Of a stretch of DNA of 44,363 nucleotides, positions 11,186 through 16,250 are shown piece by piece. A program made the translations under genes and the position numbers. The stretch lies in assembly GCA_944389495.1 (NCBI GenBank), contig CALXMN010000006.1, forward strand, positions 1 to 44,363, written 5' to 3'. Numbering within the stretch: position 1 is the stretch's first letter; every line of letters begins with the position of its first letter. This DNA is from an uncultured Alphaproteobacteria bacterium. GTDB taxonomy: Bacteria > Pseudomonadota > Alphaproteobacteria > Rs-D84. The notes beneath the pieces are model-generated. The model ran no database searches. It saw nothing but the letters and a program-made list of their open reading frames with translations, and was not told where the DNA came from.

Positions 11186-12469
11186 TCATTGTAATCTTTG
11201 TGCCGCAACACCGTACGAAGACGACCCCGACAACGACAAAGACGAGTTTCGTATCAACGCATTCTCTAATGCCTCTAAATCCGGCACCCCGTTTTTAACA
11301 CATTCTGCATACGCCTCGGCCTCTGCAATCATCCAGCATTGGCGATTTAACGGTGTTTGCTTGGATTGATTTGTACCATATTGCATTGCCGGTTTATCAT
11401 ATCCATCGGCCTGGATACAATAATTCACATTGGATGCCGTTTCATCAAAAATTTCACCAATATCACATTGTATACAAACCCCATTTTCCGGCGATGCACC
11501 ACCGCGCAGATTCTCGGTACACGGTTGGCACGTTCTGTCTGATGTGGATGGAAAGGCATATCCTTTTTCACGACATCTGTATTGAAAACAACCACGAATG
11601 TCATTAAATTCCAGCATCATTGTCGCCTCGTCAAAACCACCACTGGGCCAATCCGAACACGTCTGGGTCAGGTTACAGGTTGTTTCATCAATGGGTTCAC
11701 AATCATTACCCGCCGCATTTGCGGTATAACCATTTTTGCATAATAACGTTGCTTCGGCCGCAGGCCAGGCATCAATTCCGCCTCGTTTACTTTTCCAGCC
11801 CTCGCGCCGTGCACGAATAACATACGGTGCCGCCCAAACGCCGTGCCCACTGGCCAGCCAATCCGAAACCGCCAAAATCATATCGTGTTCCTGGCTTTTA
11901 TGCACACCACATCCGTTATTTTCGTTCCAATGAAACATCGGTATAGCATCTTCAAATTGCGGATCACGTGCCATAGTCAAATTGTTAAAATCATCACGGC
12001 GTATTGGCACAGAATCACATCCCGACACGGTTCCCTGACAACCTTCGCCACCAAATCCCGGCTTGCACAACCAATAACAGCCCTGAACACCTTGGGCAGG
12101 CTCCGAATACAAAGTCCACGCATTACCTTTTTTCTTGTGCTCTGCATAAATGGTGGTTGGGCAAAAGCGAGCACCATTTTCATTTACTTCGCGTGCAACC
12201 AACAGCAATATTCCCATATCATCACCCAACACGCATTGACCGGGCGAATTTGCATCAATTGCATAGTTTCCTTTACAAATATCTTTATCACGCCCAATTG
12301 TGGCATTTCCCAAATTAGACCCCATACAATAACTCATTATGGGGTTTTTCCAACTTGCCTTCAGATGATTTATTTGTACCCCACCACCAGCCAACGCAAT
12401 ACAGGGAAACAATTGCGCAACAAACAACGATAAAAATATTTTTCTTATATTCATTATCATATTACCCAT
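11186..12469 (-). CDS. Cys-rich secreted protein of unknown function (427 aa)
   Basis: Not recognised. A signal peptide is clear (NIRKIFLSLFVAQLFPCIALAGGG), so the protein is exported. I count about 23 cysteines, many in short spaced clusters such as CYWLCKPGFGGEGC, CEPIDETTCNLTQTC, CFQYRC, CQPC and CIQC, which imply a disulfide-bonded, EGF-like or knottin-like fold. The segment CTENLRGGASPENGVCIQCDIGE recalls the Cys modules of the 1-1256 protein. ATG 12469 lies 8 bases beyond the upstream gene's stop, so the two are probably translationally coupled; in-frame ATGs at 12460 and 12454 are alternative starts. Confidence 0.85.
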   Translation of the reverse strand: MGNMIMNIRKIFLSLFVAQLFPCIALAGGGVQINHLKASWKNPIMSYCMGSNLGNATIGRDKDICKGNYAIDANSPGQCVLGDDMGILLLVAREVNENGARFCPTTIYAEHKKKGNAWTLYSEPAQGVQGCYWLCKPGFGGEGCQGTVSGCDSVPIRRDDFNNLTMARDPQFEDAIPMFHWNENNGCGVHKSQEHDMILAVSDWLASGHGVWAAPYVIRARREGWKSKRGGIDAWPAAEATLLCKNGYTANAAGNDCEPIDETTCNLTQTCSDWPSGGFDEATMMLEFNDIRGCFQYRCREKGYAFPSTSDRTCQPCTENLRGGASPENGVCIQCDIGEIFDETASNVNYCIQADGYDKPAMQYGTNQSKQTPLNRQCWMIAEAEAYAECVKNGVPDLEALENALIRNSSLSLSGSSSYGVAAQRLQ

Positions 12470-12477
12470 TTCATCTA

Positions 12478-15000
12478 TTATGGTGCGACATAACATACAG
12501 AATTTTCGTAATATCCACCCATTAATTCTTCGCACTGTGCACGATACCACTCGTCGGTAAATGTACATTCATCACGCACCAAATCATATGATGCAACCGC
12601 CGTTGTCAACCCATCATTATACGCCAAGCATTGTATCATAGTCGTATTTTCAACACAACGTCCCCAAGATGTATTTTCATTACCACCGTAAACCTGGTTA
12701 TAAAATCCCACCAACAATGTTCCTTCACCTTGGATACGGCCATCGCGCGTATTGGTATAAGTATCATCATTATCCATCCAATACCCATCCAATTCTTCAC
12801 AGGCGTCCATCAATTGATAATCCAATTCATCACTTATATCAGAAATAGCACGATTTATTTGCTCGGTCACAGATGCAATAAATTGCGATGTATCATCACC
12901 GGTTGGATCCGCACAGTTTTGTTCCGCGAACGCCCAAATCATACCCGACAAAGTATCGTCATCTGCGTTTTGCGTTCCATCACCCGGCACCAGGTTTCTG
13001 CAATTCCACGGATAGCCCATTTCACCGCTATCGGGGGTACACAAATCCACCAGATAGTTTTCAATCGCGGCTTCGCATCCTTCGGCCACACGCACAGAAT
13101 CCACCGTATCCACAAACGCCAACAATTCTGTCAATCCGCATCTGTCATTTGCGGCTTGGCCTGTTAAACTTCCGCTATTATTTCCTGTGCCAACAACCAA
13201 TTGACCATTTCCGTCAAATTCACATCCTGATGTATCACCATATAACGACGCACAGGCAATAACCTTGTCTTGACACATAGAACGGGCGGCATACGCACTA
13301 ATGGCGCCTGTATACTGCGATGTGGTATCATCAAAATCCTGTAAAGCCCCGGTCTGGGTATTATAACATTCCGCCATTGTATCAACACAGGACATTTTTA
13401 CTTCTTCTATTTTTTCATCCTGGGCCTGGGCAATTTCGATTAATGCCTGGCGTTTAAATTCTTCCCATACAATATCAGAAATATCACGACAAGAATCCAA
13501 TGCCGTTTCCGCAAACATACGTTTGGTGTCCAAAAAGGCATTAAACTCTGGGTTGGCACCCAAAACATCACCCGTCGAACTGGAATTAACCCCCGGCAGC
13601 AATATCAAATCAGCCAATTGGAATAACCGCGGCGTATAATTCGGTTCCCCCGTGGTCGGATTTATATACGCCCCATCATAATCCAAACAACGTTGATAAT
13701 TCGCCCCACAGGCAACATCCGATTGTAATGCCGTACGCACATTTGCGATACATTCACTTACGTCGGCCGAGTTATGTGATTGATATTCTTCCAAACGTGC
13801 TTCGCGCAAATATTTTTCTGCGGTTCGCACAGTTTGTTCCAAATTTTCTTTCTGGGCATTTATACTTTTCTCATAAATATTACAATCCTGGGTAATCATA
13901 ATACTGTACGCACTGCGCGCCATTGTAAACACCGCATTATTTTCGCACGATTCCGCCACCAATTCCATACATTGTTTGCTGGCCTCGGTATACAAATCTT
14001 GTCCGACCAACGTGGACAAATCCACACCCGTGGACGTATCAAAAATAGACGTACCGCCATCACCCCAAATGTCGCCCAAATCAGATGTAAAATCTATACT
14101 TAAAATTCCCAAAGACGTTCCGCTGGTCCCCGATGAAGACGACGACCGATTGCCCGACAACAAATCGTTAATCTCTGACAACATCTCGGCGGCTGCGCTG
14201 GTATCACGCTTGATGGCGTTTTCACCCTCGGTTGCGGAATACATTGCGGTAACTTCCTCTGCACTAAGTCCAACCGCAGTTAAGTTGTTATCCTGAAATT
14301 GTGCCAATAAATTTAACGCTTCGTCAATGGCATTTTCTGTTTCACGAAATTCATCATATCGCGCACTGCAAACACATCTGCGATATTGGTCATTTGCATT
14401 TGCACAGAACTGGTCCATACAGGTTGCATACGCCTCGCGACATTGGGCATAACCGCCCCCAATTGCATTCAAATCTGTAAACACGGCCGTGGCACGCGCG
14501 TTTGATGCACGCGACGCCCCAACAACAGAATTTGTTGCCGCGGCACGCGCCGTTGATGCCGGATTATGCGTTGCCCCACGAACAACATTTGACGCCGCGG
14601 CACGTGCCGTTGTCGCGCTGCGCGCAACCGGCGCCGTCGACATTGCGGAAACCGTACTGCGCACTGTACCGCTGCGCCCAGTAACAACATTTGTTTTTGT
14701 ATCCGCACCCGTGGCCGAACGCGCAACCGTTGTGCTTGGGCGACTGGTCGCGCTGCGCGATACATTTGTCGTACCGGCACGTCCCGTCACAGATGATACG
14801 GCATTATCCGCCACAGCGGAATTAACACGAACCACCCGCCCACTGTTTGTACGCGATGTTGCGTTTGTTGTCGCCGTTCCACCGTTTGCATCCGTCCCAC
14901 CACCACGTGGATTCGGCGCCTGTGCCCCCCAGGCCGTCCCCACAGTAACGAACGCCACCGCCAGCATAAATGAAATTTTAAAAAGATTAACAATGCGCAT
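12478..15000 (-). CDS. large Cys-rich secreted protein with low-complexity Ala/Thr/Arg N-terminus (840 aa)
   Basis: Not recognised. Signal peptide at residues 1-26 ending TVGTAWGA. Residues about 30-160 are disordered Ala/Thr/Ser/Val/Arg repeats, with recurring ARSAT, TARAAA and VVRG/VVGA words. From about residue 180 the protein carries 28 cysteines in pairs, beginning CREAYATCMDQFC and RRCVC, then helical segments with CIANV...CGANYQRC, CQDKVIACASLYGDTSGC and a C-terminal CEELMGGYYENSVC. The architecture suggests a cell-surface or periplasmic disulfide-rich protein. The start is ATG 15000; a TTG two codons upstream is ignored. It heads a pair with the 427-aa gene. Confidence 0.88.
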   Translation of the reverse strand: MRIVNLFKISFMLAVAFVTVGTAWGAQAPNPRGGGTDANGGTATTNATSRTNSGRVVRVNSAVADNAVSSVTGRAGTTNVSRSATSRPSTTVARSATGADTKTNVVTGRSGTVRSTVSAMSTAPVARSATTARAAASNVVRGATHNPASTARAAATNSVVGASRASNARATAVFTDLNAIGGGYAQCREAYATCMDQFCANANDQYRRCVCSARYDEFRETENAIDEALNLLAQFQDNNLTAVGLSAEEVTAMYSATEGENAIKRDTSAAAEMLSEINDLLSGNRSSSSSGTSGTSLGILSIDFTSDLGDIWGDGGTSIFDTSTGVDLSTLVGQDLYTEASKQCMELVAESCENNAVFTMARSAYSIMITQDCNIYEKSINAQKENLEQTVRTAEKYLREARLEEYQSHNSADVSECIANVRTALQSDVACGANYQRCLDYDGAYINPTTGEPNYTPRLFQLADLILLPGVNSSSTGDVLGANPEFNAFLDTKRMFAETALDSCRDISDIVWEEFKRQALIEIAQAQDEKIEEVKMSCVDTMAECYNTQTGALQDFDDTTSQYTGAISAYAARSMCQDKVIACASLYGDTSGCEFDGNGQLVVGTGNNSGSLTGQAANDRCGLTELLAFVDTVDSVRVAEGCEAAIENYLVDLCTPDSGEMGYPWNCRNLVPGDGTQNADDDTLSGMIWAFAEQNCADPTGDDTSQFIASVTEQINRAISDISDELDYQLMDACEELDGYWMDNDDTYTNTRDGRIQGEGTLLVGFYNQVYGGNENTSWGRCVENTTMIQCLAYNDGLTTAVASYDLVRDECTFTDEWYRAQCEELMGGYYENSVCYVAP

Positions 15001-15029
15001 TGTCAAAACTTACATCTCTCTTGTTAAAC

Positions 15030-15059
15030 ATTTTATCATTTTTAGGGCAATTGAATCAA
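15030..15059 (-). promoter_or_regulatory. candidate promoter for the 840-aa gene
   Basis: Minus strand TTGATT (15054-15059), 18-base spacer, TAAAAT (15030-15035), in the 68-base gap between the 840-aa gene and the gene upstream. Confidence 0.45.
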
Positions 15060-15068
15060 CAACCAAAT

Positions 15069-15710
15069 TTACTCTATGCAACAATTTACTGCATTTTTTA
15101 CCCAATTTCCCAAACGCCGCACGGCGGAACGCGATTGAGCAACTTCATTTTTAGGTATTTCCTGTGATTTTTCCGCTTTTTCTGTATCATCCGCACATTT
15201 TGCATAGACATCTGGCGCAATTTTCTTGACACCTGTTAAATCTATCAAATCCATATTAATGCCCCAAAACAGCGAATACAGTTCATACGACTTGTTAAAT
15301 AAATCATATGCATCACGCGTATTTCCCGCCCCCAGTGCTTTGGTACCAACCTCCATCACGCGCATAGATGCCGCCAACAAATGTTTAGAAATACACCACA
15401 CTTCACCGTTTTCTGCAGTTGATTTTTTTACAATGCGCGCCATTAAATCCTTGCGCATATCGCGCACAGTATTAATCAAATCATAAAACCCAGTTTTTTG
15501 TGTTTTTGCGCCGCTAAAGAAAAAATGTTCTTCCAAAGAAATCAAATTCATCAACGCGATGGACAAATCTTGATCCGAAGATAAATCTAATGGATTAACC
15601 TTTTTGGACGCATCAACACGCGCCACCAATTCTTCCAGTGTTAATTTCTCGGATTTTTTTGTACCAACTTTTTTTGTTGACTTAACAACCTTATCTGATT
15701 TTTTTGCCAT
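15069..15710 (-). CDS. soluble helical protein of unknown function (213 aa)
   Basis: No signal peptide or membrane helix. The first about 28 residues are Lys-rich and the rest is predicted mostly alpha-helical. The most distinctive stretches are ISLEEHFFFSGAKTQKTGFY (helix then turn), RDMRKDLMARIVK, and EVWCISKHLLAASMRVMEVG followed by KALGAGNTRDAYDLFNKSYELYSLFWG, reminiscent of a TPR-like helical pair. A good AAGGAAGG ribosome site precedes ATG 15710. It starts 30 bases after the CPVC membrane protein's stop, so the two are probably co-transcribed. I have an unverified memory of similar proteins in Patescibacteria. No function is assigned. Confidence 0.85.
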   Translation of the reverse strand: MAKKSDKVVKSTKKVGTKKSEKLTLEELVARVDASKKVNPLDLSSDQDLSIALMNLISLEEHFFFSGAKTQKTGFYDLINTVRDMRKDLMARIVKKSTAENGEVWCISKHLLAASMRVMEVGTKALGAGNTRDAYDLFNKSYELYSLFWGINMDLIDLTGVKKIAPDVYAKCADDTEKAEKSQEIPKNEVAQSRSAVRRLGNWVKNAVNCCIE

Positions 15711-15740
15711 AATACAATTCCTTCCTTTCTTGGGGTTAAA

Positions 15741-16250
15741 TTACATAGTTATCAGCCAAAATACAACCGATGCCACAATTAAAAAAGACAATGGCACAAC
15801 AACCTTTTGGAATGCAAATTGCGCGTGCCCTCCATTTTTTTGCTTAATACGCACATACCAACGCGCCCCAAAATAAAAGGCAATTGTACCAACAATAATT
15901 CCCAACAAGAATTTATCTATTCCCCACAATGTGTTTGCACCAAAAACCACATCTGGCAAAGCATATACCGCGGCCAACAAACCATAGTACAACACGAACG
16001 GCAACACAATTTGCAAGAACATATTTTTTACCCCACGTTTTCTTAACCACGACACCGTCCACATAAACAAAGACAACGTTAATGCCCCGGCCCAAATTCC
16101 GGTGATAACATCATCAACCCCCAACAAACGCATCCCTTCCAATCCGGCACCAACGGCAACCGTACATACCGGACACACGGCCATTGCCGCCGGCATAATC
16201 AACACGGCGCCCAAGGCCACCATAACCATTGAAAACAAAAACTTTTTCAT
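15741..16250 (-). CDS. four-helix membrane protein with N-terminal CPVC motif
   Basis: 169 residues. An N-terminal hydrophobic signal-like helix ends PAAMA, followed at once by VCPVCTVAVGAG, with C26 and C29 forming a CxxC pair; these are the only cysteines. Four further hydrophobic helices lie at about 46-65, 77-98, 108-128 and 148-168. A CxxC at the start of a small polytopic protein is compatible with a thiol-redox or metal site on the outer face, but the arrangement does not match VKOR or DsbB, which carry more conserved cysteines. ATG 16250 follows GGGGG. It is upstream of the 213-aa protein and the two Cys-rich secreted proteins. Confidence 0.85.
   Translation of the reverse strand: MKKFLFSMVMVALGAVLIMPAAMAVCPVCTVAVGAGLEGMRLLGVDDVITGIWAGALTLSLFMWTVSWLRKRGVKNMFLQIVLPFVLYYGLLAAVYALPDVVFGANTLWGIDKFLLGIIVGTIAFYFGARWYVRIKQKNGGHAQFAFQKVVVPLSFLIVASVVFWLITM

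Follow-up and report, generated by a model that had tools for sequence, protein, structure and literature searches.

We analysed a 44,363-nt window (contig CALXMN010000006.1 of assembly GCA_944389495.1) from an uncultured alphaproteobacterium whose genome comprises 0.9 Mb in 10 contigs. Four consecutive genes lie on the minus strand of this window. The first (15741-16250), here called CPVC after its cysteine motif, encodes a 169-aa membrane protein with a signal helix and four transmembrane helices, as judged from its open reading frame (ORF), its hydropathy and a structure model. It is followed after 30 bp by SOL (15069-15710), which encodes a 213-aa predicted cytoplasmic helical protein. C28 (12478-15000) begins 68 bp further on and encodes an exported protein of 840 aa, counted from an ATG, with 28 conserved cysteines. 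C23 (11186-12469), separated from C28 by 8 bp, encodes an exported protein of 427 aa with 23 cysteines. Our analysis reproduced the order, coordinates, topology, cysteine counts and CPVC position of the original prediction, which had been made from this DNA alone. An intrinsic-terminator-like hairpin on the same strand 3' of C23 (11144-11169; 10 pairs, then a T-rich tail) is the likely end of the transcript. The original prediction had also named a candidate internal promoter at 15030-15059. This site was at chance level, as the region contains 14 promoter-like sites versus 14.8 expected in shuffles.

The Candidatus Enterousia intestinigallinarum chromosome carries the same gene block, as do dozens of metagenome-assembled genomes of gut Alphaproteobacteria (L040 and others). 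Enterousia has been assigned to the order Rs-D84; its genomes are reduced and have no respiratory chains (PMC12306168). We use "Enterousiaceae" as shorthand for the taxonomic family of the window. None of the four proteins matched a Pfam or NCBIfam model above cut-off; matches to cEGF, DUF3007 and YgaP were weak, fell under the curated scores and were rejected.

We assessed cysteine conservation in the two exported proteins. Cysteine makes up 3.3% of C28, compared to 0-2.5% of most other proteins in the window, and each of the 28 cysteine columns of the family was occupied by cysteine in 94-99% of ~70 aligned rows, as expected of structural disulfides. The C23 family was more divergent, with 12 cysteines invariant in 50 rows. 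Both proteins are probably clients in need of disulfides. At the window edge, a further minus-strand ORF (2-1256) has 31 cysteines in 418 codons and matches PF09479 (Listeria-Bacteroides repeat); it is a possible additional client.

The CPVC protein has just two cysteines, both inside the CPVC motif (residues 26-29; codons 16164-16175, minus strand) that follows MKK...PAAMA. C26, P27 and C29 were invariant in 36 aligned homologues, and a second conserved cysteine pair was absent from this alignment. Other alphaproteobacterial copies carry CAVC and similar motifs. Across the 36 homologues, the two inner loops contained on average 3.0 and 3.8 lysines plus arginines, compared to 0.3 and 1.0 in the outside loops. 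Together with hydropathy, these strongly positive-inside loops place the motif on the outer face of the membrane; a cytoplasmic location of the cysteines, which had been named as evidence against the predicted role, is thus not what the sequence analysis indicates. A structure prediction of CPVC alone gave four long helices besides the signal helix and a short one (27-42). Fold searches with this model gave no significant match in the PDB, and none to any known thiol oxidase. A PDB sequence match was at chance level and was discarded. No CPVC relative was found in the plasmid collection, and DsbB (PF02600) matched neither CPVC itself, by Pfam scan, nor any protein in 34 genomes. As far as the libraries searched show, CPVC and SOL form an undescribed family.

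SOL, treated as incidental in the original prediction, proved to be the constant partner of CPVC. We scored neighbors by HMM, counting only loci on contigs long enough. CPVC was present in 108 of the 113 Enterousiaceae genomes, and SOL lay behind it in 72/75 loci. Among 240 sampled Alphaproteobacteria genomes there were 11 further ones with CPVC (SOL adjacent in 7/11 loci), and CPVC was found in 39 of 286 Patescibacteria genomes (SOL adjacent in 34/41 loci). SOL has no signal peptide, and its model shows a bundle of helices that ends in a flexible tail. A fold search with SOL gave no significant match; the best score against rubrerythrin/ferritin-like proteins (Z 5.9) was within background for helical bundles. 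Those proteins are four-helix bundles with paired ExxH di-metal motifs, whereas SOL has EEH and WCxxxH. The first of these, E60-E61-H62 (15525-15533, minus strand), is a near-invariant polar motif and a possible metal site (E60 in 121/121 and H62 in 117/121 aligned rows). The second, W105-C106-I-S-K-H110 (15381-15398, minus strand), is also near-invariant (C106 and H110 in 116/121 rows).

The C-terminal tail of SOL (15072-15122, minus strand) carries a vicinal dithiol and ends LGNWVKNAVNCCIE. The terminus reads V/I-D/N-CC-x-E in 112/121 aligned rows. Three fusion loci (L177, L190 and L204) have a shortened SOL, and immediately after it the tail alone is specified by an ORF of its own, 32-35 codons long, e.g. 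MKKEMKKKKAKKNDFWSKIGDVVKNAVDCCIE. These tail-only micro-ORFs, at L177 6780-6887, L190 6989-7087 and L204 5328-5429, have ribosome-binding sites that are strong in L177 and weaker in L190 and L204. The CC tail terminates a different, second ORF in L198. Among the 8128 ORFs of the loci searched, only these and the membrane protein of the copper-type operons described below, five non-SOL proteins in all, carried such a tail; across the fetched loci the CC tail thus goes with this operon. That the tail occurs free or on other proteins in these operons gives the strongest indication that it is the tail, rather than the SOL helix bundle, that meets the CPVC-type protein. Four degenerate SOL copies have lost H62, C106, H110 and the CC tail together. 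They belong to ruminant-gut relatives (L059, L061, L069 and L070) and stand beside an intact CPVC gene, so SOL is not always needed.

We observed thioredoxin-like candidate partners of CPVC in Patescibacteria. In ~20 of 42 loci, the gene directly upstream encodes a membrane-anchored protein of ~130 aa that carries CPHC or a motif close to it, plus a proline loop of the thioredoxin type. Its thioredoxin/glutaredoxin-like assignment rests on this motif, the layout and a weak Pfam glutaredoxin match of one representative (E 1e-4, just below cut-off). Such a protein is fused in frame to CPVC in L177, L190 and L204, where both motifs are predicted on the same side of the membrane. No thioredoxin-fold gene adjoined CPVC in the proteobacterial loci examined.

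We determined the distribution of known thiol oxidases and their partners across genomes. DsbB was present in 201 of 240 Alphaproteobacteria genomes and in 0/14 CPVC-positive ones, which span 7 families (P = 9e-13, Fisher's test); this and the following exclusion counts are of species and ignore kinship, their P values overstate the evidence, the CPVC-positive Alphaproteobacteria may represent few lineages, and the main and second CPVC copies amount to just two clades. VKOR was found in none of the 16 CPVC-positive Alphaproteobacteria tested, the window genome included. Among Patescibacteria, VKOR was encoded by 4 of the 35 genomes that carry the main CPVC family, compared to 108 of 251 others (P = 2e-4); the four that hold both count against replacement. 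A DsbA-like protein was retained in 16/16 CPVC-positive Alphaproteobacteria tested. The window genome encodes a single one, a membrane-anchored protein with a CPFC motif (G000:C7:36302; DSBA match 8e-20). With the DsbA-like protein kept and DsbB and VKOR gone, the oxidase is left without a known recycler. No paper in our literature searches combined disulfide bond formation, DsbB and VKOR with Patescibacteria, and papers naming both Patescibacteria and disulfide bonds offered nothing relevant.

These data suggest that CPVC and SOL may form a two-gene extracytoplasmic thiol-redox module, in which CPVC is an unrelated analogue of DsbB/VKOR that recycles DsbA-like oxidases and SOL, or its CC tail, is the cytoplasmic partner. 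We give this reading a probability of about 0.5. The thiol-redox role suggested for CPVC in the original prediction gains support from the outward CxxC, the thioredoxin/glutaredoxin-like neighbors and fusions in Patescibacteria, the exclusion with DsbB and, more weakly, that with VKOR. CPVC would act as a membrane thiol oxidase whose outward CxxC accepts electrons from a thioredoxin-fold oxidase. This oxidase is likely the DsbA-like protein in the window genome, and in Patescibacteria it would be the adjacent or fused CPHC/CPYC protein. Because CPVC has one cysteine pair, the electrons must be handed on. From the single pair and the conserved, predicted cytoplasmic dithiol partner we hypothesize transfer to the cytoplasmic side via the vicinal CC tail of SOL, for which a respiratory quinone would be unnecessary. 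Counting against the module as a whole are the four loci with degenerate SOL, the absence of thioredoxin-fold neighbors in the proteobacterial loci examined, the missing fold match to any known thiol oxidase and the occurrence of distant CPVC relatives in copper operons, described below.

Electrons could also run the other way. A reductive relay resembling DsbD/CcdA would carry them from cytoplasmic thiols through the SOL tail and CPVC to an extracytoplasmic thioredoxin-fold protein, for isomerisation or repair of cysteine-rich proteins. A dithiol tail on a cytoplasmic partner suits a cytosolic electron donor, and the reductant is also missing in Enterousiaceae, where DsbD was found in 0/11 genomes tested and DsbD_TM had no match in the window genome. 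However, six CPVC-positive Alphaproteobacteria that lack DsbB do encode DsbD (G133, G159, G184, G264, G283 and G300). DsbD is therefore not what CPVC replaces there, and the oxidative recycler is the part missing throughout. CPHC, moreover, is an oxidising motif of the DsbA type. We consider the reductive relay unlikely.

Distant relatives of CPVC sit in copper operons with genes for CsoR-type repressors, DUF411 proteins, a copper-type P-ATPase and a cupredoxin-like protein (L169, L187 and L201-L203). L187 and L201-L203 encode DUF411-like proteins, a CPVC relative with the motif CPLC and a CC-tailed membrane protein; the last of these lies behind the CPLC gene and ends ...IIACCRDW or similar. 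CsoR-type repressors and proteins with CCGNS..DCNHG-like motifs occur in L201 and L169. The DUF411 protein of these operons likewise gave a weak glutaredoxin match. The window genome also contains a second, diverged CPVC-SOL pair (G000:C8:17620-18093, L097) that lacks C28 and C23. Divergent to it lies a gene for an ArsR-family regulator with two HTH stretches (L097 10248-10916, plus strand, contig C8), which suggests that this pair may respond to a thiol or metal signal. The copper operons, this regulator and the near-invariant E60, H62, C106 and H110 of SOL would fit a role in metal handling: the cysteines and the SOL residues would bind and relay a soft metal, for instance copper, at a site kept reduced by the thioredoxin-fold protein. 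Most main-family loci, however, are not near metal genes. VKOR is kept in 4/4 copper-type genomes, unlike the main family, so the two branches behave differently. A metal-handling function appears rather improbable.

We also weighed whether DsbB is absent for unrelated reasons, such as genome reduction or anaerobic life, with CPVC-SOL serving a function unconnected to disulfides. The CPVC-positive Alphaproteobacteria mostly have small genomes without complex I, and DsbB loss also accompanies genome reduction, which counts against CPVC as a DsbB analogue. Yet among genomes without complex I, DsbB was present in 12 of 19 CPVC-negative Alphaproteobacteria compared to 0/10 CPVC-positive ones. With complex I, it was present in 189/207 and 0/4, respectively, and the exclusion persisted upon stratification by complex I (P = 4e-7, Mantel-Haenszel). 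The fusion of CPVC to thioredoxin-like domains also argues against a function unrelated to disulfides, which we regard as quite unlikely.

The original prediction had tied CPVC to C28 and C23. In Enterousiaceae the common order is dnaE-rsmH-CPVC-SOL-C28-C23, followed by a convergent HTH gene and gpmI, and the four genes stayed adjacent in most main loci (C28 behind CPVC in 57/65, C23 in 42/54). This adjacency did not extend further: neither C28 nor C23 was found beside the second CPVC-SOL copy (0/5 loci), beside the pair in other Alphaproteobacteria (0/6 loci) or beside it in Patescibacteria (0/31 loci). The unit is thus CPVC-SOL, with the cysteine-rich pair a lineage-specific addition, and one inseparable four-gene system was set aside on these counts. 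That CPVC serves specifically to assemble C28 and C23 is therefore highly unlikely: the gene order is retained in most Enterousiaceae loci, and in L101 (6934-7425) and L102 (6511-7002) a second-type CPVC gene has replaced the main-type one at the rsmH-SOL-C28 locus while SOL and C28 remain of the main type, but all other lineages and the second copy have the pair without C28 and C23, and in L111 (on the same contig as L094) these lie away from CPVC-SOL in the opposite orientation. The in-place replacement in L101 and L102 indicates that the locus kept needing a CPVC protein.

In a tree of CPVC proteins, the Enterousiaceae main copy formed one clade and the second copy together with other Alphaproteobacteria formed another, both among Patescibacteria sequences; several backbone branches were weak. 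CPVC was likely exchanged at least two times between Patescibacteria and Alphaproteobacteria, in either direction. Joined with the thiol-redox module, this leads to a wider scheme that we put forward as tentative and somewhat doubtful. Exported proteins would give electrons to a DsbA-like oxidase, from which CPVC would take them across the membrane to a CC-tail module of 30 residues in the cytoplasm, mostly part of SOL, in a quinone-independent system that makes disulfides without a respiratory chain and has been exchanged at least two times between the two groups.

Some bacteria have a DsbA-like oxidase without DsbB or VKOR, and CPVC-SOL offers a concrete candidate recycler in two groups with reduced genomes. 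It is a strong candidate for the missing DsbB analogue, and a new family with an unusual shuffled dithiol tail that occurs in some bacteria without respiratory chains. DsbB and VKOR are described as reducing quinone (PMC11208910). Quinone is an unlikely electron acceptor for CPVC in the window genome, given that Rs-D84 genomes are reported to have no respiratory chains. If CPVC-SOL is quinone-free, it would alter the view of membrane disulfide oxidases as obligate feeders of the quinone pool.

The proposed module resembles known systems in part. Like DsbB (PF02600), CPVC is a small membrane protein of four helices whose CxxC faces outward, a presumed recycler of a DsbA-like oxidase with the same genomic role. 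Unlike DsbB, to which it has no sequence match, it has one cysteine pair rather than two periplasmic pairs, has a conserved cytoplasmic partner gene and occurs in genomes without respiratory chains. VKOR (PF07884) is also a membrane helix bundle, often fused to a thioredoxin-fold partner as CPVC is in L177, L190 and L204; CPVC differs in having neither a sequence match to it nor a second (loop) cysteine pair, and the two are distributed in a largely complementary manner in Patescibacteria. DsbD/CcdA (PF02683) would have in common with CPVC a transmembrane thiol relay that involves a thiol partner in the cytoplasm, provided SOL has the role proposed. However, there is no sequence match, the CPVC pair lies just after the signal helix whereas DsbD/CcdA has two intramembrane cysteines on separate helices, and CPVC coexists with DsbD in the six genomes above. 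The SOL tail itself recalls mercuric reductase, whose C-terminal CC tail is a flexible vicinal dithiol. Mercuric reductase is a different protein, and the SOL-type tail can be encoded as a free micro-ORF.
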